NCBI GenBank assembly: GCA_905234075.1
Contig: CAJOGI010000004.1
Coordinates: forward strand, 124,001-188,000
Reading direction: 5' to 3'
From: an uncultured Synergistales bacterium
GTDB taxonomy: Bacteria; Synergistota; Synergistia; Synergistales; Aminobacteriaceae
DNA length: 64,000 nucleotides
Each line of letters opens with the position of its first letter. Within the stretch, counting starts at the first letter, position 1. Position numbers and translations under genes: made by a program. Under the pieces are notes generated by a model. It had not been told where the DNA came from. It worked only from the letters and a program-made list of their open reading frames with translations, and ran no database searches. Below are positions 38,917 through 56,748 of this stretch, one piece after another.

Positions 38917-40800
38917 TTACGAACGTGAATTAATTTTGCTAATAACTTCTTTTTTCAACGAAACAGCGTCAATTTTATTATTCGGGAGCGTCGGGAGTTT
39001 ATCATATAAGAAAAATCTGCTTGGAATTTTGAACTTAGCAAGCCTTGTCATAAGAAAATCTCGCATAGCATTTTCATCGAAAACATAGCCGTTTTTCATT
39101 ACGACAGCAGCAGCTACGATTTCGCCGTAAACCTCGTCAGGCACGCCCATAACTTTTACTTCAGCAATGCTCTCATGTGCTGAGATTGCAGAAGCTACCT
39201 CATCAGGCATAATATTTTCTCCGCCCCGTATTATTAATTCTTTAGCACGGCCTGCGAAATGAAGATAGCCGTCTTTGTCCAAAAATCCTAAATCTCCCGT
39301 ATGTAAAAATCCCTCATTATCAAAAGGCTGTTTTTCAACCGGCAATTTGTAATAGCCGCACATCATATTAACGCCCTTCAAAATAACTTCGCCGGTAACA
39401 CCTTCAGGACATTTTTTACCTGTCTTTATATCCTCTATCATGATTTCAGCACCTTCAACTGTTTTTCCTACGGTGTTTAGTATATGTTCCATGCTGTCGT
39501 TATAATTCGTGGCAGTTGCCGGTGTCATTTCGCTTAGACCGTAACGCCTCATAAAGTGGTTATTAGGAAATTTTTCCATGAGCATAGCAAGCTGTGAAGA
39601 CGATACAGGCGCACCGCTCAAATACGAAGCACGTAGAGATGAAACAAGTTCAGAAGAAAAACCTTGAGCATTAACAAGCCTCAATAATACAGTCGGAACA
39701 GAATGAAGAATAGTACAGCGTTCATTATCTATGACGCTCAAAAGTTCATCAGGCTTGACATTTTGAGGCAGAATTATTGAAGCTCCGCTTATTGCGCTTG
39801 CCAAAAGAGCCGCAGTAAGTCCGAAAATATGGAAGAAAGGCAGAATAGCACACATTTTATCGCTGTCGTTCATTTGAAGATTATCAACGCAGTGATTTGC
39901 AGAATTAAGCAAATTGTAAGCCGATAGCAAAACTACTTTAGGAGTTCCTGTAGAGCCTGACGTAAAAATCATAAGACAGACATCGTCCGGCATAACATGA
40001 CCTTCATAATCGTATTTTTGATTTCTGTTCATGAAGTCTGCGCTGTCTCTTATATTGAGAGTCGTTTTTATACATGATTTATCGGGGTCTGTAATTTTTG
40101 CGGTAAAATCTTCTTTTTTGCTGTCTTCTGAATTCATATTGCCGTAGCAGAAGTGAGTTATATCTCCGATTTTTGAACAATTTGTAATTTCATTAACTGT
40201 AAGCTGAGGATTAAGCATTACAGCTATAGCACCTAACTTTTGGACAGCGTAGAAAGTTAATATCCAATTTAGAGAATTTAGACCGCAGATGGCAACGTGA
40301 GTTTTATTTCTCACTCCTAAGGCGTAAAGTTCAGAAGCCACAGCTGAAGAACCTTTGTCAATATCCTGCCAAGTATACGAGACACCGTGAGATTTTAATG
40401 CAATTTTGCTGCCGCTTTCATTAACTTTGTGCTTCAGAAAATCCCGCAGAGACATATTCAAAATATCATCGTTTTGATTTTCATTTTCAACAAAAGGCGT
40501 GTAATTAAAGAACCCTAAAAAGCCTGTTGCCTCTAAAATCTCGATAACTTCTGGCCTTACGTTCTCTAAAAGCAAACCGTCTTTTCCAAACTTTTTAACA
40601 GCAAGCAAAAATTCGCGCAATCCGTTTGATGAAACATAAGATAATTTTCTCATATCCCAGACGAGAGGAAGATTAATTTTTTCCGGCTCGATGTCTTTCA
40701 AAACTTCATGCAGCATCGGAGCAGTTGTTGCGTCTATTTTTCCGCTAAGTATCAGCTTATTCGCGCTTGGCCGTTCAATATTTAATTTAGAATTCTTCAT
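38917..40800 (-). CDS. STAS domain fused to an acyl-CoA ligase (AMP-binding)
   Basis: 627 aa from ATG 40800 (AGGAG 9 bp upstream). Residues about 1-105 form a STAS domain: NKLILSGKIDATTAPMLHEVL and WDMRKLSYVSSNGLREFL, where the Ser before NGLR aligns with the phospho-acceptor Ser of SpoIIAA-type proteins. The rest is a complete AMP-forming ligase: IFTSGSTGTPKVV, RYGLSEMTPATATNY, HTGDLGFLDKDGYLHFAGRAKELIIRGGENI and the C-terminal catalytic Lys in LPNNKIDAVSLKK. It could make the acyl-CoA or acyl-AMP for the starter condensation domain of the NRPS 1.3 kb upstream on the same strand. The STAS part suggests control by the phosphatase/ATPase pair of that operon; this is inference. Confidence 0.88.
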   Translation of the reverse strand: MKNSKLNIERPSANKLILSGKIDATTAPMLHEVLKDIEPEKINLPLVWDMRKLSYVSSNGLREFLLAVKKFGKDGLLLENVRPEVIEILEATGFLGFFNYTPFVENENQNDDILNMSLRDFLKHKVNESGSKIALKSHGVSYTWQDIDKGSSAVASELYALGVRNKTHVAICGLNSLNWILTFYAVQKLGAIAVMLNPQLTVNEITNCSKIGDITHFCYGNMNSEDSKKEDFTAKITDPDKSCIKTTLNIRDSADFMNRNQKYDYEGHVMPDDVCLMIFTSGSTGTPKVVLLSAYNLLNSANHCVDNLQMNDSDKMCAILPFFHIFGLTAALLASAISGASIILPQNVKPDELLSVIDNERCTILHSVPTVLLRLVNAQGFSSELVSSLRASYLSGAPVSSSQLAMLMEKFPNNHFMRRYGLSEMTPATATNYNDSMEHILNTVGKTVEGAEIMIEDIKTGKKCPEGVTGEVILKGVNMMCGYYKLPVEKQPFDNEGFLHTGDLGFLDKDGYLHFAGRAKELIIRGGENIMPDEVASAISAHESIAEVKVMGVPDEVYGEIVAAAVVMKNGYVFDENAMRDFLMTRLAKFKIPSRFFLYDKLPTLPNNKIDAVSLKKEVISKINSRS

Positions 40801-42109: not shown

Positions 42110-45100
42110 TTAAAAGTCGAAGAACCCCAGCCCCTTGATGGCACCGATGAACTGTGCAACGTAATCCCATGACGTAACCGGCCAGCGGTAGCCCATGCGG
42201 TAAAGTGTCTGCATGGTGTATGTGTTATGACGCGCAATATGCGTATCACGCTTGTTTCCGCTTTGGTAGGCCAACATGCTTGTCAGGAGCTTTGCTTTTA
42301 CAGGATCGTCTCCTGCTTTCGCCATAGCGGCATCGAAATCTTCCCGTTCTACTGGTTTCACGGGAAGGCCGAGTTTTTCCATTTCGCCGAACACGTTGCC
42401 CGACAGAATAGCGTTATGGTTGTACGGGTGGAAGATAACGCACTCTTTTGGTGTCTGACACAGAAGCAAAATAGCCTTTGCAACTTCATCGATTGGCGAG
42501 AACTCCATAGGTACGTCCATTTGCTCATAAGGACATACGCCAAGTAGTGCGTAAATCTTCAGGCGGCCCATTGCGGAGTTCATTCCGTTATTAATCTGAA
42601 ATTCTCCGTCACTGTACCGCGCCGCTAGGTTACCCACGCGCATAATCTTAGCGATAAGCCCCTTCTCTTTCACGGCCTCCAATACAAGTCGCTCGGCAAG
42701 GAACTTGGAGCGCACGTACTTGTTCTCCAAAAGCTGGCCGAAGTACAGGTCGCGCTCACCGATCATTCGCCCCTCTTCTAAGGACTTGCCCTTGCTCATG
42801 CCCATACTGACGGTACTCATGGTCGAGACTTGGATCAAGCGGACACTGTTAGCGAGGCAGTAATCAATCAGGTTTTTCACGCCTCCTACGTTCGCGTCCT
42901 CTATCTCCGTCCCGGTGGAGAAGTGCTTGACCACCGCCGCGCAGTTGATGACAGTCGAGACGGGCAGTTTCGGGATAGGCTTCGTGATGTCGCCTTCCAC
43001 GACGAAAAGCCGCTTTCCTAAAAGTTCATCGTAGGTTTTCTCTAAATAATAGAAGAGCTGACCCTTCAGCCGCCATTCCGCGTCGTAAGCACCCTTGCCG
43101 CGAAGGAGGCAATAAACGTTCCCGTCGTAATTTTCCAGAAGCTCATGAAGTATATGAATGCCGAGATAGCCCGTCGCGCCGGTGAGCAGGACATCGCCAA
43201 GCGGCTGCCGTGCGCCTGCCTTAAAACTCTCCAGAGTGTTTGCGTCAAGGACGGACTGTAATTTACTGTAATCGTAATCCCGGACATCGTCTTTTGCAGG
43301 GTGTTCCGCTTTCGCTGCTTTGTCTGTGAACAACTCAGCTAATGCTCTTGGTGTAGGTCTGGAGAACACGTTCTGGAACGTTACGCGGTAGCCGGCCTTC
43401 TCCGCCTCAATCATCACTCGCGTTACCAGCAGCGATGTTCCGCCTAACGAGAAGAAGTCCTCAGTAGCTCCGACATTATCAAGTTGAAGAATATCGCCGA
43501 AGATTTTACAGAATGCCCGCTCCGCATCATTGGCCGCCGCCTCTGAAACGTTGCGTTCGATGACGGCCTCAGGCAGTGCGCGAAGGTCGGTCTTGCCGTT
43601 GGGGGTCATGGGCATCTTGTCAAGCTGTAGCCATGCTGTTGGTACCATGTACTTCGTCAAAGTACGTCCGATTTCCTCACGAATGGCCGCTATATCCATA
43701 GGTTTGTCCGCTGTGAAGTAGGCGCAGAGGTGATCTTGTCCCTTGATTGAGTTAATCTTAACCGCAACGCTCTTCACGCCCTTGACGTGTGCAATGGCAG
43801 ATTCAACCTCGCCAAGCTCGATACGAAGGCCTCGCAGTTTTACCTGATTGTCTTTGCGCCCAAGAATTTCAACGTTGCCGCCGTCTCTCCACCTCGCGTA
43901 GTCTCCCGACTTATAGACGCGCGTTCCTCGATACTCGACAAATCGCTCTGCTGTCATTTCCGGCAGGTTGTGATAGCCAATGGCAACGCCGCATCCGCCG
44001 ATGTACAGTTCTCCAACGACACCGCAGGGCAGTTCATTTCCGTCGCTGTCAACTATAAATTCTTTCACTCCAGGCAGAGGACGACCAACGGTAACGACGT
44101 TATCCCGTGTCAGCTCGCGGATGTTGGAAGACACCGTTATCTCCGTAGGCCCGTAGGTATTGAAAATCCGGGCTTCGGGATATTCTGTTTGCAGCCTTTG
44201 AAGCAGATGTTGCGGATACTTCTCGCCTGCACAGATGATTACCCGGCATTGCGACAGTGCTTCCCGGAAGTCTTGGGACTCAAGCAGCGTAAGCAGACGG
44301 GACGGCGTTGCCTGGAACAAATCCGTATTCGTCTCCTTCATCTTACGGCCCAGCGCGCTTGCGTCATTGCACTGCTCCTCGTCAGCCACCGTAACTGTAA
44401 GCCCGTTAAACAGCGGAATACCAAATTCTTTGACGGCCATATCAAATGAGAGTGTTGTAATCGCCGTTATGACGTGTCCTTCGTTCACCATAGCGTGAGG
44501 TAAAATGGTCTCAGGCGTGTCTGTTACGTAATTGACCAGTCCCCTGTGCGCTATAGTTACGCCCTTAGGCTTGCCCGTAGAGCCCGAAGTGTAAATCATG
44601 TAGGCCGGGTCTTCTTGGGATATCTGAACATCGGGACGTGATGTGTTCTGCTCCTTTAGAAGTTCCTCAATATCGACTGTTCGGTCTCCCTCCAGCCTGT
44701 CCTTCGTAGTGATGATTACGGGCGCATCGGAGTCCTCTACGATATGCCGAACTCTTTCCGCAGGATAGTTCGGGTCGCAGGGAATATAAACTCCTCCGGC
44801 TTTCAGTACGCCAAACATCGCAAAGAAGAACCTCGCCCTTCTCGGCAGAAGCAACACAACGCGATCCCCTTTTCTAACACCCCTCGCTATAAGAGCGTTA
44901 GCTATCATGTTCGCGTTCTTATCCAGTTCCCCATAAGTGTAACTTCCGTCCGCAGCAATCAAAGCTATAGCCTCCGGTCTTTTGGCGGCCACACACTCCA
45001 TTCCGGAATGGAAGAGACAGTCGGCAGGGATATTCGGCTTGTAGTCCCTTTCGCGGAACTTTGCCAGAACCGCCCGCCGCTCATCGTCAAGAAGCTCAAC

Positions 45101-48100
45101 GCTGCGAATAGGCTTTTCCGGCGCAGCCATTATTGACTCGGCGGCTATCACGATGGATCGGGCTAGACTCTGCATAAGATTTTCACTGTACAGAGCATCG
45201 TTGTAGTACAAGGCTACGCAGGGCGTTCCGTCCCGTTCCTCGATGTGGACGGAGAGCTTGAACTTTGATACTTCCAGCCCAAGTGACTCGCGCTTCAGTC
45301 CTTCATCTTTCTCCACGACGCCTATTTGATACTCGTACATAATGTTTGGTACGAAGCCGTAGTCCGACGCGATTCGGGCGAACGGGTATTTCTCATGCCG
45401 TATTGCGCCGTCAAAGACCTCCGCGCTGTGCTTCACAAATTCTGCCGCGCTCTCGTTCTTTATTTCAAGCCCTAGCGGCAAGGTGTTGACAAACATTCCG
45501 TACGTTTCCGCCGTGCGAACGTCGCTGCGTCCGCTGCTGATGGTAGAGAGATAGACGCGGTTGTCGCTCACGTAGCGTGAGACGGCATAGAACGTTGAGG
45601 CCAAGAACAGCGAGGCTGGAGTAACGTTCCGTGTTTTGCAGAAGTCTGAGGCAGCTTTGAAGTCTAACGGAGATGAGACACGCCCCATTGTTCCTTCTTC
45701 CTCTTTCCCGCTTACGTCCGATGTTATTTCGCTGGCACTCTCAAAGTCCGAAAGCATATCCGCAAAATATTTCTTATTCTCCTCGAACTCTGGGGATTGT
45801 TCAAACTTCTTCTCGTCCGAAACATAATCAAAATATGTGTATTCCTCCGGCTGGGGATATGTGCCGTCAATAGCGGCTGCCAATTCCTTAATAAAGAAGT
45901 TCAGCGAAGCACCGTCGAACACAAGGTGGTGGAAGTCCGTTAAAAGACAAACCCTCTCCGGCGTTCTTACGATGACGAAACGGCACAACGGACCTTTACT
46001 CAGATCGAAAGGCTTTACGAAGCCCTTTTTATATGCTTCCAGTTCGGTCTCGGACATCTCCAGAAGCTCCGCGTTTATTTCGCCTGAGCCGCAAACCTGC
46101 GTGATGTTGCCATTCCGCGTCTCGAAATGAGCCGTCAGCACAGGGTGAGCTTTCACTACAGCCTTCACAGCCCTGACTAATTTTTGAGTGTCCATGTCTG
46201 TCCCGAACGTAAACAGCGACGGCACGTTGTACAGCACTTCCGCCGGGCGTTTCATGCAATCGTAATAGACACCCATCTGCGGATAAGACAGGGGAGCCTC
46301 CGTGATTTTTACGTCCCTTGCTGCGTGCTCTTCCCGTTTACCTGACATGAAGCTGCGCCATATATCGTTCTCAAGGTCCTCCAGCGTCGCTCCGTCAAGA
46401 AGCCTACGAGACGGTATCTCTACGCCCAGACGCTTATAAATCTGGGTTGAGAGCTGTATAGAACGTATAGAGTCAAGCCCCATGTAGATCAGCGGCGTTG
46501 TGAGGGAAACACTTTCAGTACCGATGATCTTACCCGTCATGGCGCAAAGCTCCTGCTCCATCACGTTCAACGGGCGGCCGCTGTCATCAGCTTCTTTCTC
46601 GGCCTTGAACTCCGGCTTTGGCAGGGCGCGTTTGTTTACCTTGCTATTCTGATTCAACGGGATTTTGTCGATCTGCATCGTAACGGCCGGAACCATGTAG
46701 GGCGGCTTCTGACTCTTTATAAAATCATTGAGGGCTTTAATGTCGATCTCCTTATCACTCACGACATAGCCGGCCAGATATTTCCCCTCGCCGGACTCGT
46801 TGTCGAATGCGGCCACCGTTGCGTCTGTAACGCCGGGGAACTGACGAATGACGGCCTCGACTTCAGAAAGCTCTATTCTAAAGCCGCGTATCTTTACCTG
46901 ACCGTCGCGCCGCCCGAAGAACTCAATGTTCCCGTCCGCTCTGTAGCGCACGATGTCGCCGGTTTTATAAACTTTCCCGGAGTCGAACGGGTTTTTGATG
47001 AAAACATCGGCGGTCTTTTCTGGAAGATTGAGGTATCCGTCGCCGACCTGCGGCCCGGAGAGCCATAGTTCGCCCAACGCCCCCACGGGGACGCGATGCC
47101 CGTCGCCGTCAACGACATAGGCTTTCATGTTATCCAAGGGCTTGCCGATGGGGATATTGTCCTCATTCTTTGTTACGGGATAACTTGTGGCGTAAATTGT
47201 GCACTCTGTCGGGCCGTAGCCGTTGTGCAGCATATAGGCCGTGGGCGGGTCGAGGGGAACTAACTTCTCGCCGCCAACGGTGAGGTGCTTCAGACTATGG
47301 TTATCGATATTCACGGCGAACTGGCGTCCAACCTGCGTGGTCATGAACTGATGAGTAACGCGGTTCTTCTCCAGATATTCATTGATGGCGTTCAGGTCAA
47401 GCCGTATCTCCTCAGGGATAACGCATAGAGCTGCGCCAAGCGTCAAGGGCGAGTACATATCCATCATACAGGCATCGAAGCCATAGGAGGCGTACTGACC
47501 TACGCAGTCTTCCGGCTGAAGTTTGTAATAACGGTGATACCAGTTGACGAAGCAAACGAGATTGCCGTGCGTCAGGCGGACTCCCTTCGGCGTGCCCGTA
47601 GAGCCGGAAGTGTAGAGCAGGATAAACAGGTCTTCGGGTTTGACTGTCGGGAGTTCCGCGCCACACGCCGGAAGCGCGGGTATCTCGCTCACCATCAGCA
47701 CGTCTCCGCTGTAATCCGTAATGAGCGGCCTTAGCTCTTCGGTCGTGATTAGCAGCTTCGCGCCGCTATCCTTTACCATGAAGTTCAATCTCTCCGGCGG
47801 ATAAGTCAGATCCAGAGGCTGGTAGGCGCACCCGGCCTTCAACACTCCGATGGAAGCTATAGGCATATACTCGCCTCTTGGAATGAGAATAGAGACGACA
47901 TCGCCGCGCCCAAGCCCCTTGCTTGCAATAGTCCCGGCAATTCTATCTGTTATCTCGTCCAGTTCTTTATAGGTTAGCTTCTTTCCGTTGAAGATGACGG
48001 CGGTTCGGTCAGCGTTTTCACTCGCGGCCTTGCGGAACAGAGACACGATTGTCTGTGTGGCGTCATAGGGGTTATCCGTGTTGTTGAAGCCGTCCAAAAC

Positions 48101-49360
48101 GCCTAACTGTTTTTCATTAGTCGGCTCAATATCGCGGACGTATTCCCGGCTCATCATCTGCTGCAGGACGTTCTCATAAGTCCGGGCAAACGTATCGATG
48201 AAATCATGAGAATATTTTCCGGCGTTGTAACTGATGTGAAGTTTCATTCCGTTTGTTTCGCACATAAGCTCAACCTCAAGAGGATAGCCCGTAGCATGAC
48301 TGTCAAGAATTTCATATTGACATGGTAGTCCGCAGAATGTAGAGGTAGTTCTGATCATGCCGTGATAGGCGAACATGGGTTTGTCGTTCATGGGGCAGAT
48401 TCGGTTGAGGTCGGCGAAAGAGAAGAGGTCATTCTCTCGGCTTTCACTAATCTGAACAGACAGAGCTGTCAGCAAATCGGTTATTTTTGTATCCGAATCC
48501 CAGCGGCAGAAAACAGGCATAGTCTTAACGAACATTCCGATTATTTTTGCCGTTCTCTCGTCCTTGCGTCCGTGATATATAGTGGAGAACAGAGCCTCCC
48601 GCTGATGAGTATAAACTCCCAGTGTGAAGCCGAATGCCGCCGACGTTAGGGCCGAAGCGGAGATTTTATGCTCGCGGCAGAAATTCCGCATCTCGTCATA
48701 GTTAAGTGGGAAATCGTGAACGAAGGTCTTAAAGGAGTCCGGCTTGCCGTAAACATCAGGCAGAGGCAGGCTCTCCGTGTCTAAGCCGGAGAAGTTCTCA
48801 TCGTACCATTTTTTTGCCGTTTCGTATTCGGAGCCGTTGCGCTTTTCCGACTCATCCCACGCCGCGTCCAAAGCGTTATAGCTTTCCTGTGTTATCTCAA
48901 GCCCGTTGTACGCCGCCGCGATGTCCGCAAACAATACGTTATTAGCCGTGCCGTCAAAGGCGATATGATGCGTCGTACGCAAAAAATACTTCGCCTTCTC
49001 CGTCTGAACAAGATCAAAACGGAAAAGTCGTCCGCCCATAAGCTCCAGAGGTGTCGATATCAAGCGAGGCATTTCGCGCTTCCATTCCTCTTCAGTCATC
49101 TCCGTGACGGTCTGAGAGTACGGCTCAAAGCTGTCGGGTATGTACTGCATTGGCTCCCCGTCCCGTTCAACTATGCGGACGTTCATGTAGGGGTGCGCCG
49201 CGACAGCCTTCTCGAATGCCGCTGCCAGCCGCTTCATGTCGATGTCGTTGTCCAGAGTATAAAGGAAATGACTATTATACGTACCCTTCCCTCTTCTCAC
49301 ACAGTCCAGGTAAATTCCAAGCTGCGTTTGGGACAGCGAAACAAATTTCTCTTTTTCCAT
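42110..49360 (-). CDS. Dimodular NRPS, C-A-T-C-A-T-reductase
   Basis: 2416 aa from ATG 49360 (AGAGGT 8 bp before). Domains by motif: C1 with HHIAFDG (~131), A1 with YTSGSTGTPKGV (~587), T1 with GLDSI (~960), C2 with HHLVFDG (~1145), A2 with YTSGSTGKPKGV (~1593), T2 with LGGTSLL (~1975), terminal reductase with TGATGYLG (~2063) and YVRSK (~2216). All catalytic motifs look intact. A leading C domain with no A/T before it normally N-acylates the first amino acid; a terminal reductase releases the chain as an aldehyde. So an N-acyl dipeptide aldehyde, or a pyrazinone if deacylated, is expected. The C domains are divergent but HHxxxDG is kept. No phosphopantetheinyl transferase is in the window. 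Base composition is richer in G+C than the flanks. Confidence 0.95.
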   Translation of the reverse strand: MEKEKFVSLSQTQLGIYLDCVRRGKGTYNSHFLYTLDNDIDMKRLAAAFEKAVAAHPYMNVRIVERDGEPMQYIPDSFEPYSQTVTEMTEEEWKREMPRLISTPLELMGGRLFRFDLVQTEKAKYFLRTTHHIAFDGTANNVLFADIAAAYNGLEITQESYNALDAAWDESEKRNGSEYETAKKWYDENFSGLDTESLPLPDVYGKPDSFKTFVHDFPLNYDEMRNFCREHKISASALTSAAFGFTLGVYTHQREALFSTIYHGRKDERTAKIIGMFVKTMPVFCRWDSDTKITDLLTALSVQISESRENDLFSFADLNRICPMNDKPMFAYHGMIRTTSTFCGLPCQYEILDSHATGYPLEVELMCETNGMKLHISYNAGKYSHDFIDTFARTYENVLQQMMSREYVRDIEPTNEKQLGVLDGFNNTDNPYDATQTIVSLFRKAASENADRTAVIFNGKKLTYKELDEITDRIAGTIASKGLGRGDVVSILIPRGEYMPIASIGVLKAGCAYQPLDLTYPPERLNFMVKDSGAKLLITTEELRPLITDYSGDVLMVSEIPALPACGAELPTVKPEDLFILLYTSGSTGTPKGVRLTHGNLVCFVNWYHRYYKLQPEDCVGQYASYGFDACMMDMYSPLTLGAALCVIPEEIRLDLNAINEYLEKNRVTHQFMTTQVGRQFAVNIDNHSLKHLTVGGEKLVPLDPPTAYMLHNGYGPTECTIYATSYPVTKNEDNIPIGKPLDNMKAYVVDGDGHRVPVGALGELWLSGPQVGDGYLNLPEKTADVFIKNPFDSGKVYKTGDIVRYRADGNIEFFGRRDGQVKIRGFRIELSEVEAVIRQFPGVTDATVAAFDNESGEGKYLAGYVVSDKEIDIKALNDFIKSQKPPYMVPAVTMQIDKIPLNQNSKVNKRALPKPEFKAEKEADDSGRPLNVMEQELCAMTGKIIGTESVSLTTPLIYMGLDSIRSIQLSTQIYKRLGVEIPSRRLLDGATLEDLENDIWRSFMSGKREEHAARDVKITEAPLSYPQMGVYYDCMKRPAEVLYNVPSLFTFGTDMDTQKLVRAVKAVVKAHPVLTAHFETRNGNITQVCGSGEINAELLEMSETELEAYKKGFVKPFDLSKGPLCRFVIVRTPERVCLLTDFHHLVFDGASLNFFIKELAAAIDGTYPQPEEYTYFDYVSDEKKFEQSPEFEENKKYFADMLSDFESASEITSDVSGKEEEGTMGRVSSPLDFKAASDFCKTRNVTPASLFLASTFYAVSRYVSDNRVYLSTISSGRSDVRTAETYGMFVNTLPLGLEIKNESAAEFVKHSAEVFDGAIRHEKYPFARIASDYGFVPNIMYEYQIGVVEKDEGLKRESLGLEVSKFKLSVHIEERDGTPCVALYYNDALYSENLMQSLARSIVIAAESIMAAPEKPIRSVELLDDERRAVLAKFRERDYKPNIPADCLFHSGMECVAAKRPEAIALIAADGSYTYGELDKNANMIANALIARGVRKGDRVVLLLPRRARFFFAMFGVLKAGGVYIPCDPNYPAERVRHIVEDSDAPVIITTKDRLEGDRTVDIEELLKEQNTSRPDVQISQEDPAYMIYTSGSTGKPKGVTIAHRGLVNYVTDTPETILPHAMVNEGHVITAITTLSFDMAVKEFGIPLFNGLTVTVADEEQCNDASALGRKMKETNTDLFQATPSRLLTLLESQDFREALSQCRVIICAGEKYPQHLLQRLQTEYPEARIFNTYGPTEITVSSNIRELTRDNVVTVGRPLPGVKEFIVDSDGNELPCGVVGELYIGGCGVAIGYHNLPEMTAERFVEYRGTRVYKSGDYARWRDGGNVEILGRKDNQVKLRGLRIELGEVESAIAHVKGVKSVAVKINSIKGQDHLCAYFTADKPMDIAAIREEIGRTLTKYMVPTAWLQLDKMPMTPNGKTDLRALPEAVIERNVSEAAANDAERAFCKIFGDILQLDNVGATEDFFSLGGTSLLVTRVMIEAEKAGYRVTFQNVFSRPTPRALAELFTDKAAKAEHPAKDDVRDYDYSKLQSVLDANTLESFKAGARQPLGDVLLTGATGYLGIHILHELLENYDGNVYCLLRGKGAYDAEWRLKGQLFYYLEKTYDELLGKRLFVVEGDITKPIPKLPVSTVINCAAVVKHFSTGTEIEDANVGGVKNLIDYCLANSVRLIQVSTMSTVSMGMSKGKSLEEGRMIGERDLYFGQLLENKYVRSKFLAERLVLEAVKEKGLIAKIMRVGNLAARYSDGEFQINNGMNSAMGRLKIYALLGVCPYEQMDVPMEFSPIDEVAKAILLLCQTPKECVIFHPYNHNAILSGNVFGEMEKLGLPVKPVEREDFDAAMAKAGDDPVKAKLLTSMLAYQSGNKRDTHIARHNTYTMQTLYRMGYRWPVTSWDYVAQFIGAIKGLGFFDF

Positions 49361-49376
49361 TGTATTACCTCTTTTT

Positions 49377-51173
49377 TTATAATTCAATAATTGTCTGATT
49401 CAGCGACAGGACGCGGCTGTAGTGAATGTCCTTCGCCATTGCTTTCAATAACATAATTCCGTCAGTGCGATAATCGGCCGTTTCGTTAGGGGTGTACTCA
49501 ATCGGGTTGAAGGGCTGACCGTTGTCGCGCAGAGCAAGAATGACGCGCCCGTTGCGGGAAGCCTCGCCCCCTGCACTTTCAATTACGCTGATCCTAACGT
49601 CAATATCCGCAGCGCGTTTGTTTTTAGCATAGCTTGCCAGGTTCGCCGTCATTTCCTCCAGAGCAATTCCAGCCATTGCCGCTTTCTCCGTCTCAAGGCC
49701 GTTACTTTTTAGAACGCCCTCCGCCTCTTGGGACAGCCTCACCGCGTCCTCGTTCGTAGCCTTGAGCGACACGTCGTAAAGCAGTTCCTTGCCGCTCTTC
49801 TCGATTAAATAAAAGTCCGTAAGTTTTCCGCCGGAGTTCTTGCAGGCAACGCGGACATAGACGAGCAGACAAAGGAAGCCGATAAACTCCGCAAGTATGA
49901 ACGCCACCCACACGCCCGTCAGCCCCATTAAACGCGATAAAACCCACGCGGCAGGTACGACAGCGAAAAAGCCCTCGACAAACGAGAGGATATTTGCGGC
50001 CGTCCGCTGCTGTACCGTCGTGTAGTAGTACAGCATAAGGAACGTAACAGCGACACCAAGAAGACTAATAGAGAACAAGCGGAGTGCCTTTGCTCCCTCA
50101 GCCGTAAGTTCCGGCGGCAGATTGAAGAGAGACAGCACCGACTGAGGGGATAACAGAACGAACAAAACGAACAGCCCTACCAACGAGAGCGTGAAGCGCA
50201 TGACGTGCCGCGTCAGCATACGGATACCCTGATAATCCTTCTCGCCGTATAACACGCCCACGATTGGTATCATCGATCGATGCCCGCCGGAGATAAACAT
50301 CGAGACAAAGCTGAGACAGGATACGCACACAGCGTAGATCGTCATGGCTCCGGCTCCTCCTGTAGCACTTAGAATGGCGTATATGCACCATATTTTGACA
50401 GAGACAAGGCCAACCCCGGCCGCTGCCGGAACTCCTGTCCGTATCAGTCTGAAAGTCAATGACAGGAACGCCTTTATCCCATTGCCCAAAATATTGACAA
50501 GGCGGAATGTTCGCTCGGACGAGACGAAATAGCGTGCAAGCAAATAGCCGGCACCAACGACATCGCTCACAACCGTAGCCAGAGCCGCGCCCTCCAGTCC
50601 CATCTTCATAGGGCCAATCAGGAAAATGTCAAGCCCTATATTCACAACTTGTCCAAGCAGCACGGCGTGGCTCACAACCCCTGCCATACCGTCGGAACGG
50701 ATCAGGACGCTTAGTCCGCCCAAGACGATCATGAAGGGAAATCGCCAAATCAGGATATGGAGGTATGCCCAGCCGCCCTCCACAAGTGCGTCAGAAGAAG
50801 CAAGGAAGCGCGACAGTTCGCGTGTAAAGGGGAGACACAAGAGCGTCATTAAGGCTCCTACTCCGAAGCACAGAACCGTAACGGCGGTGAAAATGCGGTT
50901 TGCCTCATCGTGCTGTCGTGCTCCGGCAGCAATGGCGGCAAGCCCCCCCGAACCGACGGAAATAAGCATCATTATTGCCGCCACAAGCTGATTCAGCGGC
51001 ATACAGACCCCCACGCTGGCCATCGCTCTCGCGTCAATAAAATTTCCCACGATTATGCTGTCGATGATGACACCAAGCTGCCCGGCGATCGTGGAAAGAA
51101 CGGTGGGCAGGAAAAATTCACGAAACTTTTTGTTGACAAGCTTTCCAGATTTTACATAGCCTGTCTCAAACAT
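49377..51173 (-). CDS. MATE-family exporter fused to RsbW-like ATPase domain
   Basis: 598 aa. Residues about 1-455 form a MATE transporter with 12 helices (FFLPTVLSTIAGQLGVIIDSIIVGNFI start; GMGLEGAALATVVSD-type repeat at MKMGLEGAALATVVSDVVG). Residues about 465-598 form a GHKL/HATPase_c domain of anti-sigma kinase type: GIALEEMTANLASYAKN (N box, Glu and Asn), LALRDNGQPFNPIEY (DxGxPF, G1 box) and NQTIIEL at the end. RsbW/SpoIIAB-type domains phosphorylate STAS proteins. Fused to an exporter, it could couple transport to the STAS switch. It lies 16 bp before the NRPS start and 14 bp after the phosphatase gene. Confidence 0.9.
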   Translation of the reverse strand: MFETGYVKSGKLVNKKFREFFLPTVLSTIAGQLGVIIDSIIVGNFIDARAMASVGVCMPLNQLVAAIMMLISVGSGGLAAIAAGARQHDEANRIFTAVTVLCFGVGALMTLLCLPFTRELSRFLASSDALVEGGWAYLHILIWRFPFMIVLGGLSVLIRSDGMAGVVSHAVLLGQVVNIGLDIFLIGPMKMGLEGAALATVVSDVVGAGYLLARYFVSSERTFRLVNILGNGIKAFLSLTFRLIRTGVPAAAGVGLVSVKIWCIYAILSATGGAGAMTIYAVCVSCLSFVSMFISGGHRSMIPIVGVLYGEKDYQGIRMLTRHVMRFTLSLVGLFVLFVLLSPQSVLSLFNLPPELTAEGAKALRLFSISLLGVAVTFLMLYYYTTVQQRTAANILSFVEGFFAVVPAAWVLSRLMGLTGVWVAFILAEFIGFLCLLVYVRVACKNSGGKLTDFYLIEKSGKELLYDVSLKATNEDAVRLSQEAEGVLKSNGLETEKAAMAGIALEEMTANLASYAKNKRAADIDVRISVIESAGGEASRNGRVILALRDNGQPFNPIEYTPNETADYRTDGIMLLKAMAKDIHYSRVLSLNQTIIEL

Positions 51174-51186
51174 GAATATCGCCTCT

Positions 51187-52827
51187 CTATAAATATCGTA
51201 TATACATCATTGTCAGGTCATCAGACTGAGGAGCCGTCCGCACGAAAGCCGCGACCTGATTTTTCACATAATCTATAAGCTCCTGTGCGCTCAAATTTTT
51301 CGCGTTCACAACGTGAGCATTCAGCGCGTCCAGCAGTCTAACTTCCCCGAAGAACTCGTGCTCGCAGTTCTCCGCCTCCGTAACTCCGTCAGTGTAGAAT
51401 AAAATCCCGTCGCCCTGTAAAAGCGAAAGAGAATCTTCCTTAAATTTAGCTTTATCGTCGATGCCTAAAAAGCCGTTTTGCGCTATTGGCAGGTATTCAA
51501 AAACACCGCCTCTGGAAATCAGCGGCGGGTTGTGCCCAGCGTTGACGTAGGTGAATTTTCCTGTTCTTACGTTCAGGACTCCGGCGAAAACCGTCACAAA
51601 CATTAGGCTGTCGTTGCCTCGACAGAGTTGGAAGTTAGCATAGCTAACTGCTTCGGCCAGTGCTCCCGGCTCGTCCGGTGCAATATAGATAAAGTTTGCC
51701 AGCAGGATTTGAGCCTTGCTCATGGTAAGTGCCGCCGGAACGCCTTTGCCGGATACGTCCGCGATTATGAAAGCTACACGGTTTTCATCGATGGTGTAGA
51801 AGTTGTAGAAGTCTCCGCCGACTTCTTTAGCTGCGTCCATTATTGCAGCTATGTCAATCTCTGATCGAATGGCAAAATTTGTGGGAAGCATGGAGAGCTG
51901 AATATTCCGCGCCACGTTAAGTTCTGACTGAACCTGCTCCTGCTTTCTTGTAACCTGCGTTAGATTAATAATGTAATCGACAGTCTGCTCTTCCATCGTA
52001 TCGATAGCACGTGCAAGCTGACCGATTTCGTTTGACATTCTGATGGACTCGCCAAGTTTTGATTCTGAAAGGCTGTTCTTCACTGCAAAGCGCGATATTT
52101 CCTTCGTAACGGCCTTGATAGGGTTTAAGAGCCATCGACGAAGTCCCCACAGCACAAGATAAAGGATAACCGCCAGCAACAGCATTGCCCACCCCAAAAC
52201 TTTATACGCATGTCTGTATATGACGGTGCGCAGCTTTTCCATTTTTCTCTGGACGCAGATAAGCCCTGCCACTCGATCCTCTTTTGTCTTGACGGGGATA
52301 ACAACAGTAATATGATCTTCCTCCCACTGCTGAGGCTGCACAACCATAGCATATTTTGCGCCTTGATATATCTCGGCATAAGCCTTTCGTTGAGCATCGC
52401 CGGATTTAGCCACAGTACCGCCGGGATACAGCACCATCTCAGGATAATCTTCAAGTAGGGAAGGGTGTACCACTGTCAGACCAAAACGAATACGGCCGTA
52501 GTCCTCCCCTTCCGTCTGAATGAGGTAGATCATCAAAACTCCCTGAGAGTCCCGGTTTGCCAGACGCTGCCACTCACTCTGAATTTGACGTCGCTCCTCC
52601 GGGTGATTTCCCCCGTCCGCCGTTAGGTAGTCAGCTATATGATCGGGATTGAGGTATGTTCGCGCAGTCCTTGCAGTATGATAGGCCGCCTCAACGTACT
52701 GATCAATAACGGCCTTAGTTATCTCCCGGCTGCCGATATAAACGATGACATAACACAAAAAGACGAGCACGAGTGCCACACTGGTAAGAACCTGGACACT
52801 CAGGCTCGTTTTGAGGGCTTTAATCAT
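51187..52827 (-). CDS. Membrane SpoIIE/RsbU-type Ser phosphatase with sensor domain
   Basis: 546 aa. Helix at about 10-32, periplasmic sensor region to about 205, second helix at about 210-232 (VLGWAMLLLAVILYLVLWGLRRW), HAMP-like region to 290 and a coiled coil, then a PP2C-type phosphatase: DAAKEVGGDFYNFY (metal Asp), FIIADVSGKGVPAALTMS, YVNAGHNPPLIS, LFYTDGVTEAEN and APQSDDLTMMYIRYL. It should dephosphorylate STAS-Ser-P on sensing an outside signal. ATG overlaps the STAS stop (ATGA). Confidence 0.93.
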   Translation of the reverse strand: MIKALKTSLSVQVLTSVALVLVFLCYVIVYIGSREITKAVIDQYVEAAYHTARTARTYLNPDHIADYLTADGGNHPEERRQIQSEWQRLANRDSQGVLMIYLIQTEGEDYGRIRFGLTVVHPSLLEDYPEMVLYPGGTVAKSGDAQRKAYAEIYQGAKYAMVVQPQQWEEDHITVVIPVKTKEDRVAGLICVQRKMEKLRTVIYRHAYKVLGWAMLLLAVILYLVLWGLRRWLLNPIKAVTKEISRFAVKNSLSESKLGESIRMSNEIGQLARAIDTMEEQTVDYIINLTQVTRKQEQVQSELNVARNIQLSMLPTNFAIRSEIDIAAIMDAAKEVGGDFYNFYTIDENRVAFIIADVSGKGVPAALTMSKAQILLANFIYIAPDEPGALAEAVSYANFQLCRGNDSLMFVTVFAGVLNVRTGKFTYVNAGHNPPLISRGGVFEYLPIAQNGFLGIDDKAKFKEDSLSLLQGDGILFYTDGVTEAENCEHEFFGEVRLLDALNAHVVNAKNLSAQELIDYVKNQVAAFVRTAPQSDDLTMMYIRYL

Positions 52828-53126
52828 CCTTCAATCGGAATATGATCGCTGAAGTGGGATATAGCAAAGACGTTCTTGATAACCTCGTTAGCGTGAATGA
52901 TTTTGATAGGGCCGTCGCCAAAGCTGCGTTTCGCTTTCAGTAGGGAACGGAGCCCCGCAGAAGAAATGTACTCCAAGCCGGCAAAGTCAAGCGTTACTTC
53001 CTTGACTCCAAGTACAGATGCTGCAAACTCCTTGTCGAACTCTTGGGACGTTATCGTGTCCAAGCGTCCGTTAAGTGTCAGTATGAGGGACGTTCCCTCG
53101 ACACTCTTAGTGATTTCTAAAGACAT
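52824..53126 (-). CDS. STAS-domain anti-sigma-factor antagonist-type protein
   Basis: 100 aa, a single SpoIIAA/RsbV-like domain. VEGTSLILTLNGRLDTITSQEF and VTLDFAGLEYISSAGLRSLL; the Ser before AGLR is the expected phospho-acceptor. First gene of the NRPS operon, overlapping the phosphatase by 4 bp. It should be the substrate of both the phosphatase and the MATE-fused ATPase domain. Leader: AAGGAGCGTTTTTTATG. Confidence 0.94.
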   Translation of the reverse strand: MSLEITKSVEGTSLILTLNGRLDTITSQEFDKEFAASVLGVKEVTLDFAGLEYISSAGLRSLLKAKRSFGDGPIKIIHANEVIKNVFAISHFSDHIPIEG

Positions 53127-53257: not shown

Positions 53258-53285
53258 ATAAAAAGCCCGTTTATTGACGGGCTTT
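53258..53285 (-). terminator. Intrinsic terminator of the NCS2 permease gene
   Basis: Minus strand: arms AAGCCCGT and ACGGGCTT with a 6-base loop, then TTTTTATAATT. It separates the permease transcript from the NRPS operon promoter region. Confidence 0.85.
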
Positions 53286-53314
53286 CGTGTTTTTCATAAC
53301 CTAGTGAAATCAGG

Positions 53315-56590: not shown

Positions 56591-56726
56591 AAAAATCACG
56601 GCGAAAAATTTTTTGTGAGGCTGAAAAATTTTTTGTGATTCTATTTTTTTTTGAAGCTCTGGAAAATTTTATGAGAGTTAAAAATTTTTGAAGTTTTTGT
56701 AGGTGTAAAAGTAGTTGCAAAAAAAT
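56591..56726 (+). repeat. Dispersed intergenic repeat, copy D
   Basis: Best match to copy A: AAAAATCACGGC, AAAAATTTTTTGTG twice, GATTCTATTTTTTTTTGAAG, AAAATTTTATGAGAG, then GTAGGTGTAAAAGTAGTTGC and an A-run. Lies between divergent genes. Confidence 0.82.
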
Positions 56727-56748
56727 TCTCTCCTTTGCCGAGAGAATT
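56724..56748. terminator. Hairpin abutting repeat copy D
   Basis: AATTCTCTC and GAGAGAATT arms; on the minus strand it is followed by TTTTTTT from the repeat end. No minus-strand gene ends here, so its role is unclear. Confidence 0.5.

Follow-up and report, generated by a model that had tools for sequence, protein, structure and literature searches.

Partner switches are best known as controllers of sigma factors, and a few other targets have been recognised for them. One such target is found in the SiaABCD system of Pseudomonas aeruginosa, in which a SpoIIE-type phosphatase, an RsbW-fold kinase and a STAS-like protein act on a diguanylate cyclase; the kinase of that system is not fused to its effector, and the target is not a transporter. 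That a STAS protein can act on a transporter has a precedent in MlaB, which works on the ABC ATPase MlaF; this pair has neither an RsbW-like domain nor a phosphatase. A similar gene cluster has already been described in the methanogen M. ruminantium M1, where mru0066-0071 include the non-ribosomal peptide synthetase (NRPS) mru0068 together with a MatE protein, an anti-sigma antagonist and serine phosphatases, and where sensing, expression regulation and export were proposed (Leahy 2010, PMC2812497). Fig. S8 of that paper gives mru0068 condensation-adenylation-thiolation modules and a terminal reductase. For Syntrophomonas wolfei (swol1094), the paper states full-length NRPS similarity only and not the whole group. 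Of the two NRPS-MATE-STAS-phosphatase groups named in the preliminary description, the one in a rumen methanogen is thus documented, and the one in a syntrophic Firmicute comes down to NRPS similarity. Leahy 2010 was the only relevant report on such NRPS groups in a literature search conducted largely outside the subscription journals; rumen surveys have found NRPS clusters by the thousand, along with similarity between methanogens and Firmicutes (PMC8241843).

The window, meaning the whole 64,000-nucleotide stretch of DNA that was analysed, corresponds to C4:124001-188000 in the Synergistota genome (1.84 Mb, 18 contigs) of a rumen Synergistaceae bacterium, whose close named relatives are rumen Synergistaceae MAGs. 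Its minus strand carries, at 42110-53126, a four-gene unit in the order STAS protein, SpoIIE-type phosphatase, MATE exporter with an RsbW-like domain, and NRPS (Table 1). The gene content (NRPS-reductase, MatE, STAS, SpoIIE) is that of the mru0068-type cluster, with T-R homology to the structure 6vtj. The available part of the methanogen account reports no RsbW domain on the MatE protein of mru0066-0071, and the same literature search returned no paper on a fusion of RsbW or HATPase_c_2 to MATE; as far as that part of the source goes, the RsbW domain on the exporter would be the new element. With the SpoIIAB/SpoIIAA/SpoIIE and RsbW/RsbV/RsbU systems, the locus shares the same three protein families, the RsbW/SpoIIAB fold, a phosphoacceptor serine and a complete PPM domain. 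It differs from them in having no sigma factor, in carrying its RsbW-like domain on a transporter and without the GxG lid, and in being a biosynthetic operon.

Table 1. Features of the locus and its surroundings, in window coordinates.
Feature	Coordinates	Strand	Basis
STAS domain fused to acyl-CoA/AMP ligase	38917..40800	-	PF01740 E=8e-10, PF00501 E=1e-74
NRPS, C-A-T-C-A-T-R, ~2416 aa from ATG 49360	42110..49360	-	Pfam/NCBIfam
MATE exporter with C-terminal RsbW-like HATPase_c_2, 598 aa	49377..51173	-	PF01554 E=2e-25; PF13581 E=3e-8
RsbW-like domain, exporter residues ~464-598	49380..49784	-	fold match and motif counts
Membrane PPM/SpoIIE-type serine phosphatase, 546 aa	51187..52827	-	PF07228 E=1.2e-42, full profile
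STAS protein, anti-sigma-antagonist type, 100 aa	52824..53126	-	PF01740 E=3.9e-11
Terminator-like hairpin, 10-bp stem and T tract; ends the upstream uracil-permease unit	53261..53286	-	consensus match only

Pfam and NCBIfam searches recovered all four genes with the domains and positions given in the preliminary description. Of its junctions of -4, 14 and 16 bp, the first and last were reproduced as a 4-nt overlap and a 16-nt gap, and the middle gap proved to be 13 nt. The last value takes the NRPS to start at the ATG at 49360, which has a Shine-Dalgarno sequence and is likely the true start rather than the TTG at 49387. Ribosome-binding sites were found in the compact unit, in support of the earlier proposal of a single transcript. 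The strong terminator-like hairpin sets the four genes apart from the upstream uracil permease, and the operon promoter would lie between this hairpin and 53126. Read directly from sequence, a phosphatase, a STAS protein with a phosphoacceptor serine, an exporter with an RsbW-fold domain and a reductase NRPS form one compact unit.

A search for this neighbourhood across gut and rumen anaerobes had been suggested, and the co-occurrence was found. Scanning 84,980 species genomes with profile A1, built on five Synergistota exporters, returned 61 loci, which by the NCBI ranks in the record titles span five phyla and eight classes: Synergistota, Bacillota (Clostridia, Negativicutes, Erysipelotrichia, Bacilli), Mycoplasmatota, Actinomycetota (Eggerthellaceae) and Thermodesulfobacteriota (Desulforhopalus). 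Most loci come from rumen or gut samples, and the genomes are mostly MAGs. In 56 of the 61 loci an NRPS lies at most 250 bp from the exporter, with a median gap of 3 bp; in two more the distance is 1.4 kb, and the remaining three showed no NRPS on the contig. The recurrence of the pair in 58 of the 61 retrieved loci rules out chance or an annotation artefact. Since the gene order is variable, with either the exporter or the NRPS first, the pairing is not mere inheritance of one arrangement. All NRPSs with a stop inside the locus end in a reductase domain, and they have two or three modules. In several lineages, STAS and/or SpoIIE genes stand beside the pair: 18 of 58 loci have them at a distance of up to 3.5 kb, with many loci truncated by contig ends. 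Of the 12 loci flanked on either side by 1.5 kb of sequence, six have STAS and/or SpoIIE and four have both, and in L086, from the culturable Pseudoruminococcus massiliensis, the next SpoIIE match lies just past the edge of the sequence read. STAS and SpoIIE are encoded somewhere in each of the 20 genomes tested, but this says little, since Firmicutes commonly have such genes. Across these sequences, the invariant core is the exporter-RsbW fusion with the NRPS-reductase, and STAS and SpoIIE are common, not universal, neighbours. In one genome (L053/L036, G019:C103), a single STAS-SpoIIE pair has a copy of the exporter fusion on each side; the two copies are divergent and share 71% and 82% identity with that of the window.

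The NRPS of the window has intact HHxxxDG motifs in both C domains, the serines of both carriers and the YxxxK of the reductase, and its last carrier is followed by a thioester reductase (NAD_binding_4, PF07993 E=7e-31, with TGATG and YVRSK motifs). The best PDB match of the T-R didomain is 6vtj (E=2e-87), presumably an archaeal PCP-R didomain, followed by the AusA reductase (1e-44). Read by hand, the adenylation codes are approximately DAMFTGGIYK (A1) and DMKQIATVSK (A2), and we know of no confident match to any known code. The best NCBIfam model for the whole protein is AusA (NF047350), at 1263 bits against a cut-off of 2500. The NRPS also differs from AusA in starting with a C domain, and shares small size and reductive release with AusA/aureusimine and the gut peptide-aldehyde NRPSs (Guo 2017, as cited in PMC12282076). 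Reductive release would be expected to yield an aldehyde, an alcohol or a cyclised pyrazinone, and the predicted dipeptide product is probably an aldehyde or a derivative of one.

The exporter has the MatE repeats of its family, and residues D38, N178 and D182, which we equate with the cation site of PfMATE, are kept in at least 90% of the exporters. Its PF13581 match covers residues 471-587. AlphaFold gave a pLDDT of 86 for the full exporter and 88 for the domain modelled alone, and the domain model matched RsbW (6m37) at Z=14.0 with an rmsd of 2.2 over 111, SpoIIAB (1th8) and UsfX (8ih8) each at Z=13.8, and SiaB (6kko), the point of likeness to SiaABCD, at Z=12.6 with an rmsd of 5.3. Ordinary histidine kinases match at Z 7.7 and below, against 12.5-14 for RsbW, SpoIIAB and UsfX, and the modelled fold is specifically of the latter type. 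The domain keeps the N-box EEMTAN and the G1 box RDNGQPFNP, has TDG in place of the G2 GxG lid, and contains a family-specific N-N/Q-T hairpin. Counted by regular expressions and one MAFFT alignment, the N-box is present in 56/58 exporter domains, the G1 box in 57/58 and the hairpin in 56/58. The GxG of the ATP lid occurs in 1/57 of them against 10/10 canonical RsbWs, a comparison set of ten domains from the same clusters and the host genome in which the hairpin is found in 0/10. Compared with an RsbW-type GHKL kinase, the fold (Z 14) and the N and G1 boxes are in place and the G2 GxG is not. E506, E507, N511, D550, G552, Y585, N592 and T594 are invariant or nearly so in sequences from across the phyla, mostly 21-32% identical to the window exporter. 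The degenerate ATP lid might suggest a vestigial passenger with no switch function, but this degree of conservation at such identities makes that reading highly improbable.

The preliminary description had counted all three parts of a partner switch (kinase, phosphatase and STAS) and no sigma factor. The STAS protein, the phosphatase and the lack of a sigma factor were confirmed, and the kinase became uncertain on account of the degenerate ATP lid and of the separate canonical RsbW in other clusters, so that the full set may not hold within the window operon. Of the 11 clusters in which the SpoIIE gene is complete (L051, L053, L056, L058, L063, L071, L081, L101, L106, L107, L110), seven also encode a canonical RsbW, which in six of them (L056, L063, L071, L101, L106, L110) is fused to the phosphatase. 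The window operon is without a canonical RsbW of its own, and the host genome encodes one at C4:64.7 kb. Given the loss of the lid and the separate RsbW in 7/11 clusters, the exporter domain does not look like a standard kinase and is unlikely to be just "the kinase"; it keeps its ATP-contact boxes and may still have kinase function. It could be an active STAS kinase that reports the transport state, with phospho-STAS acting elsewhere as the output. Nearly every exporter domain retains the Glu/Asn of the N-box and the Asp of G1, which would fit such activity, as would an operon that holds no other kinase gene. However, the GxG lid is lost in 56/57 domains, clusters often supply their own RsbW as counted above, and the sister domains on ABC and DMT transporters are conserved though without ATP-contact residues, and we consider an active kinase unlikely, while taking it seriously.

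These sister domains lie in a partner-switch locus conserved in the genus, found in the host genome as L016 (5484-16789; G000:C4:59484-70789) and in related species as L160-L168. L016 encodes, one after another, a HATPase-like protein, two STAS proteins, a DMT/EamA carrier that ends in an RsbW-like tail, a Cache-HAMP-SpoIIE phosphatase, a canonical RsbW and a fusion of STAS to an APH-like kinase, together with several solute-binding proteins, an ABC permease and an ABC ATPase that likewise has an RsbW-like tail. Across L016 and L160-L168 the DMT-RsbW fusion is often present, SpoIIE is sometimes fused to RsbW, and there are three to six solute-binding proteins. Besides the host genome, 8/8 relatives in which this stretch of the locus was covered (L160-L164, L166-L168) have the ABC-RsbW fusion, and many of the 43 genomes in the genus contain matching frames of equal size. 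Both tails have lost the N-box Asn and the G1 Asp and kept the EE pair. The ABC tail falls below the Pfam cut-off (E=2.5e-4, 1.6e-5) and Pfam recognises nothing in the DMT tail, and their assignment therefore rests on profile A3 and alignment. A possible ABC-RsbW fusion in Lachnospiraceae (L107) was not confirmed by Pfam. In the same genus, orphan MATE-RsbW fusions occur with no NRPS neighbour (L017 7936-9765, L037, L039-L042, L169-L171), and in L165 (9616-11183, G085:C120) the end of a MATE-RsbW gene is followed by two further tandem 104-aa RsbW-like copies and a STAS gene.

Since RsbW-like domains that have lost kinase features occur on three unrelated transporter types, in operons with STAS, a phosphatase and, at the core locus, a canonical kinase but no sigma factor, the simplest reading is that STAS, switched by kinase and phosphatase, docks on the transporter and alters its activity. 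We infer that these domains are docking modules and that transport is the output; about half of the well-flanked loci, with no adjacent STAS or SpoIIE, weigh against this.

The operon STAS protein keeps the phosphoacceptor motif Y-I-S-S-A-G-L-R in alignment with 23 other STAS domains. The phosphatase is predicted to have two TM segments, a ~170-aa extracytoplasmic sensor region, a HAMP-like linker (E=6e-4, below the Pfam cut-off) and a catalytic domain with acidic motifs, so that, by sequence, a phosphorylatable STAS and a PPM/SpoIIE domain are both present. Its sensor half is homologous to the phosphatases of the core partner-switch locus in related species (E ~1e-44), and its top NCBIfam model is SiaA, far below the cut-off. 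No sigma factor was found in the operon or seen among the surrounding genes examined, and thus the operon does not encode a cognate sigma factor with its switch as SigB/SigF-type systems do. A sigma factor in trans was also considered, and rejected because the host genome encodes only three sigma70-region-2 proteins, of 447 aa (RpoD-sized), 249 aa (beside CheC/CheD-like genes, FliA-like) and 186 aa, none of them beside any switch locus examined. A conventional transcriptional switch, in which phosphorylation and dephosphorylation of STAS would release a sigma factor, or some other regulator, in trans with the exporter and NRPS as mere targets, would follow the classical Bacillus SpoIIAA/RsbV systems, which act on sigma factors, and Leahy 2010 (PMC2812497) read the methanogen cluster as NRPS expression control. 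Yet no sigma gene was found at the exporter-NRPS clusters examined, the sigma70-type proteins of the host are limited to the three above, and it would be left unexplained why exporters of different phyla carry an RsbW domain as a covalent part. We regard such a switch as decidedly unlikely.

On the same strand, 1.3 kb downstream of the NRPS, lies a STAS-ligase gene that the preliminary description did not include. Its GC content is 38.6% against 52% for the NRPS, no homologue was found in G007 (a genome 75% complete, with an exporter 98% identical), and STAS-fused ligase homologues are present in relatives without the window-type NRPS; on these three grounds it was rejected as a core part, which it probably is not, and it is possibly a second client. 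In G021 a STAS-ligase (of the group L121 8635-10512 / L122 8104-9966) directly follows another MATE-RsbW fusion, and in G082 one lies alongside ABC exporters and two free STAS genes. Proteins of ~400 aa with no Pfam family (L121 12302-15988, L122 16347-17678, L124 13725-14936) adjoin exporter-RsbW/STAS-ligase clusters. The switch might instead serve as a scaffold, with STAS as a bridge from the exporter domain to the NRPS, or to the STAS-ligase; the product would then pass straight to the exporter, and phosphorylation would build or dissolve the complex. It is indeed the NRPS, and not STAS, that is the exporter's invariant neighbour, and the STAS-ligase does lie downstream in the window and next to an exporter-RsbW fusion in G021. 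On the other hand, no NRPS of the set was seen fused to a STAS or RsbW-type domain, and the deviating GC and the lack of a G007 homologue speak against the ligase as partner; a scaffold is, in our judgement, very unlikely.

A close exporter was found in only 7 of 188 genomes of the phylum Synergistota. In the exporter tree, the Synergistaceae copies do not form one clade (single-clade AU test p=1.6e-7), and the copy of G089, from the genus of the window, groups with Selenomonadaceae and Clostridiales copies at bootstrap 100. With a single origin of the Synergistaceae copies rejected, the unit has probably moved between phyla, a conclusion to be read with possible MAG misbinning and misassembly in mind. 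The exporter and NRPS have a GC content of 52-53%, the STAS and phosphatase genes 47-49%, and five other loci of the host genome ~42%. In G007 (~94% DNA identity), the operon is found on another contig and among other neighbours, and the window's right flank, from 53315 onward, runs on there into sequence with no match to the window. Tree, GC and differing genomic sites together support the earlier suggestion of a system that moves among gut anaerobes. An intergenic repeat of ~130 bp at 56604-56732 of the window has more than 30 partial or full copies across the G007 genome (~72-84% identity).

In the docking reading, an outside signal would act on the sensor region of the phosphatase; an RsbW-type kinase, probably the canonical RsbW at C4:64.7 kb or, weakly, the exporter domain itself, would phosphorylate STAS, and the phosphatase would dephosphorylate it. 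Unphosphorylated STAS would then dock on the RsbW-like domain of the exporter and change transport, in either direction of gating, with the exporter in the place that the sigma factor occupies in Bacillus switches. The recurrent exporter-enzyme pair and the switch parts suggest that the switch controls small-molecule export, not gene expression. We give about an even chance to the view that this is a horizontally moving cluster of gut anaerobes in which export of a reductively released dipeptide is controlled by protein-level partner switching. More tentatively, and just short of evenly balanced, RsbW-like pseudokinase domains on unrelated transporters (MATE exporters of NRPS products, ABC ATPases of the amino-acid type and DMT carriers) could constitute a new class of partner switch with transport as its output, in which STAS phosphorylation gates flux and which, in gut anaerobes of several phyla and possibly in methanogens, controls the release of reductively off-loaded peptides. 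If true, a transporter in the sigma-factor slot would be a new output for partner switches and would explain how anaerobes with reductase-type NRPSs time the release of their products, and the exporter signature offers a simple handle for finding such clusters.
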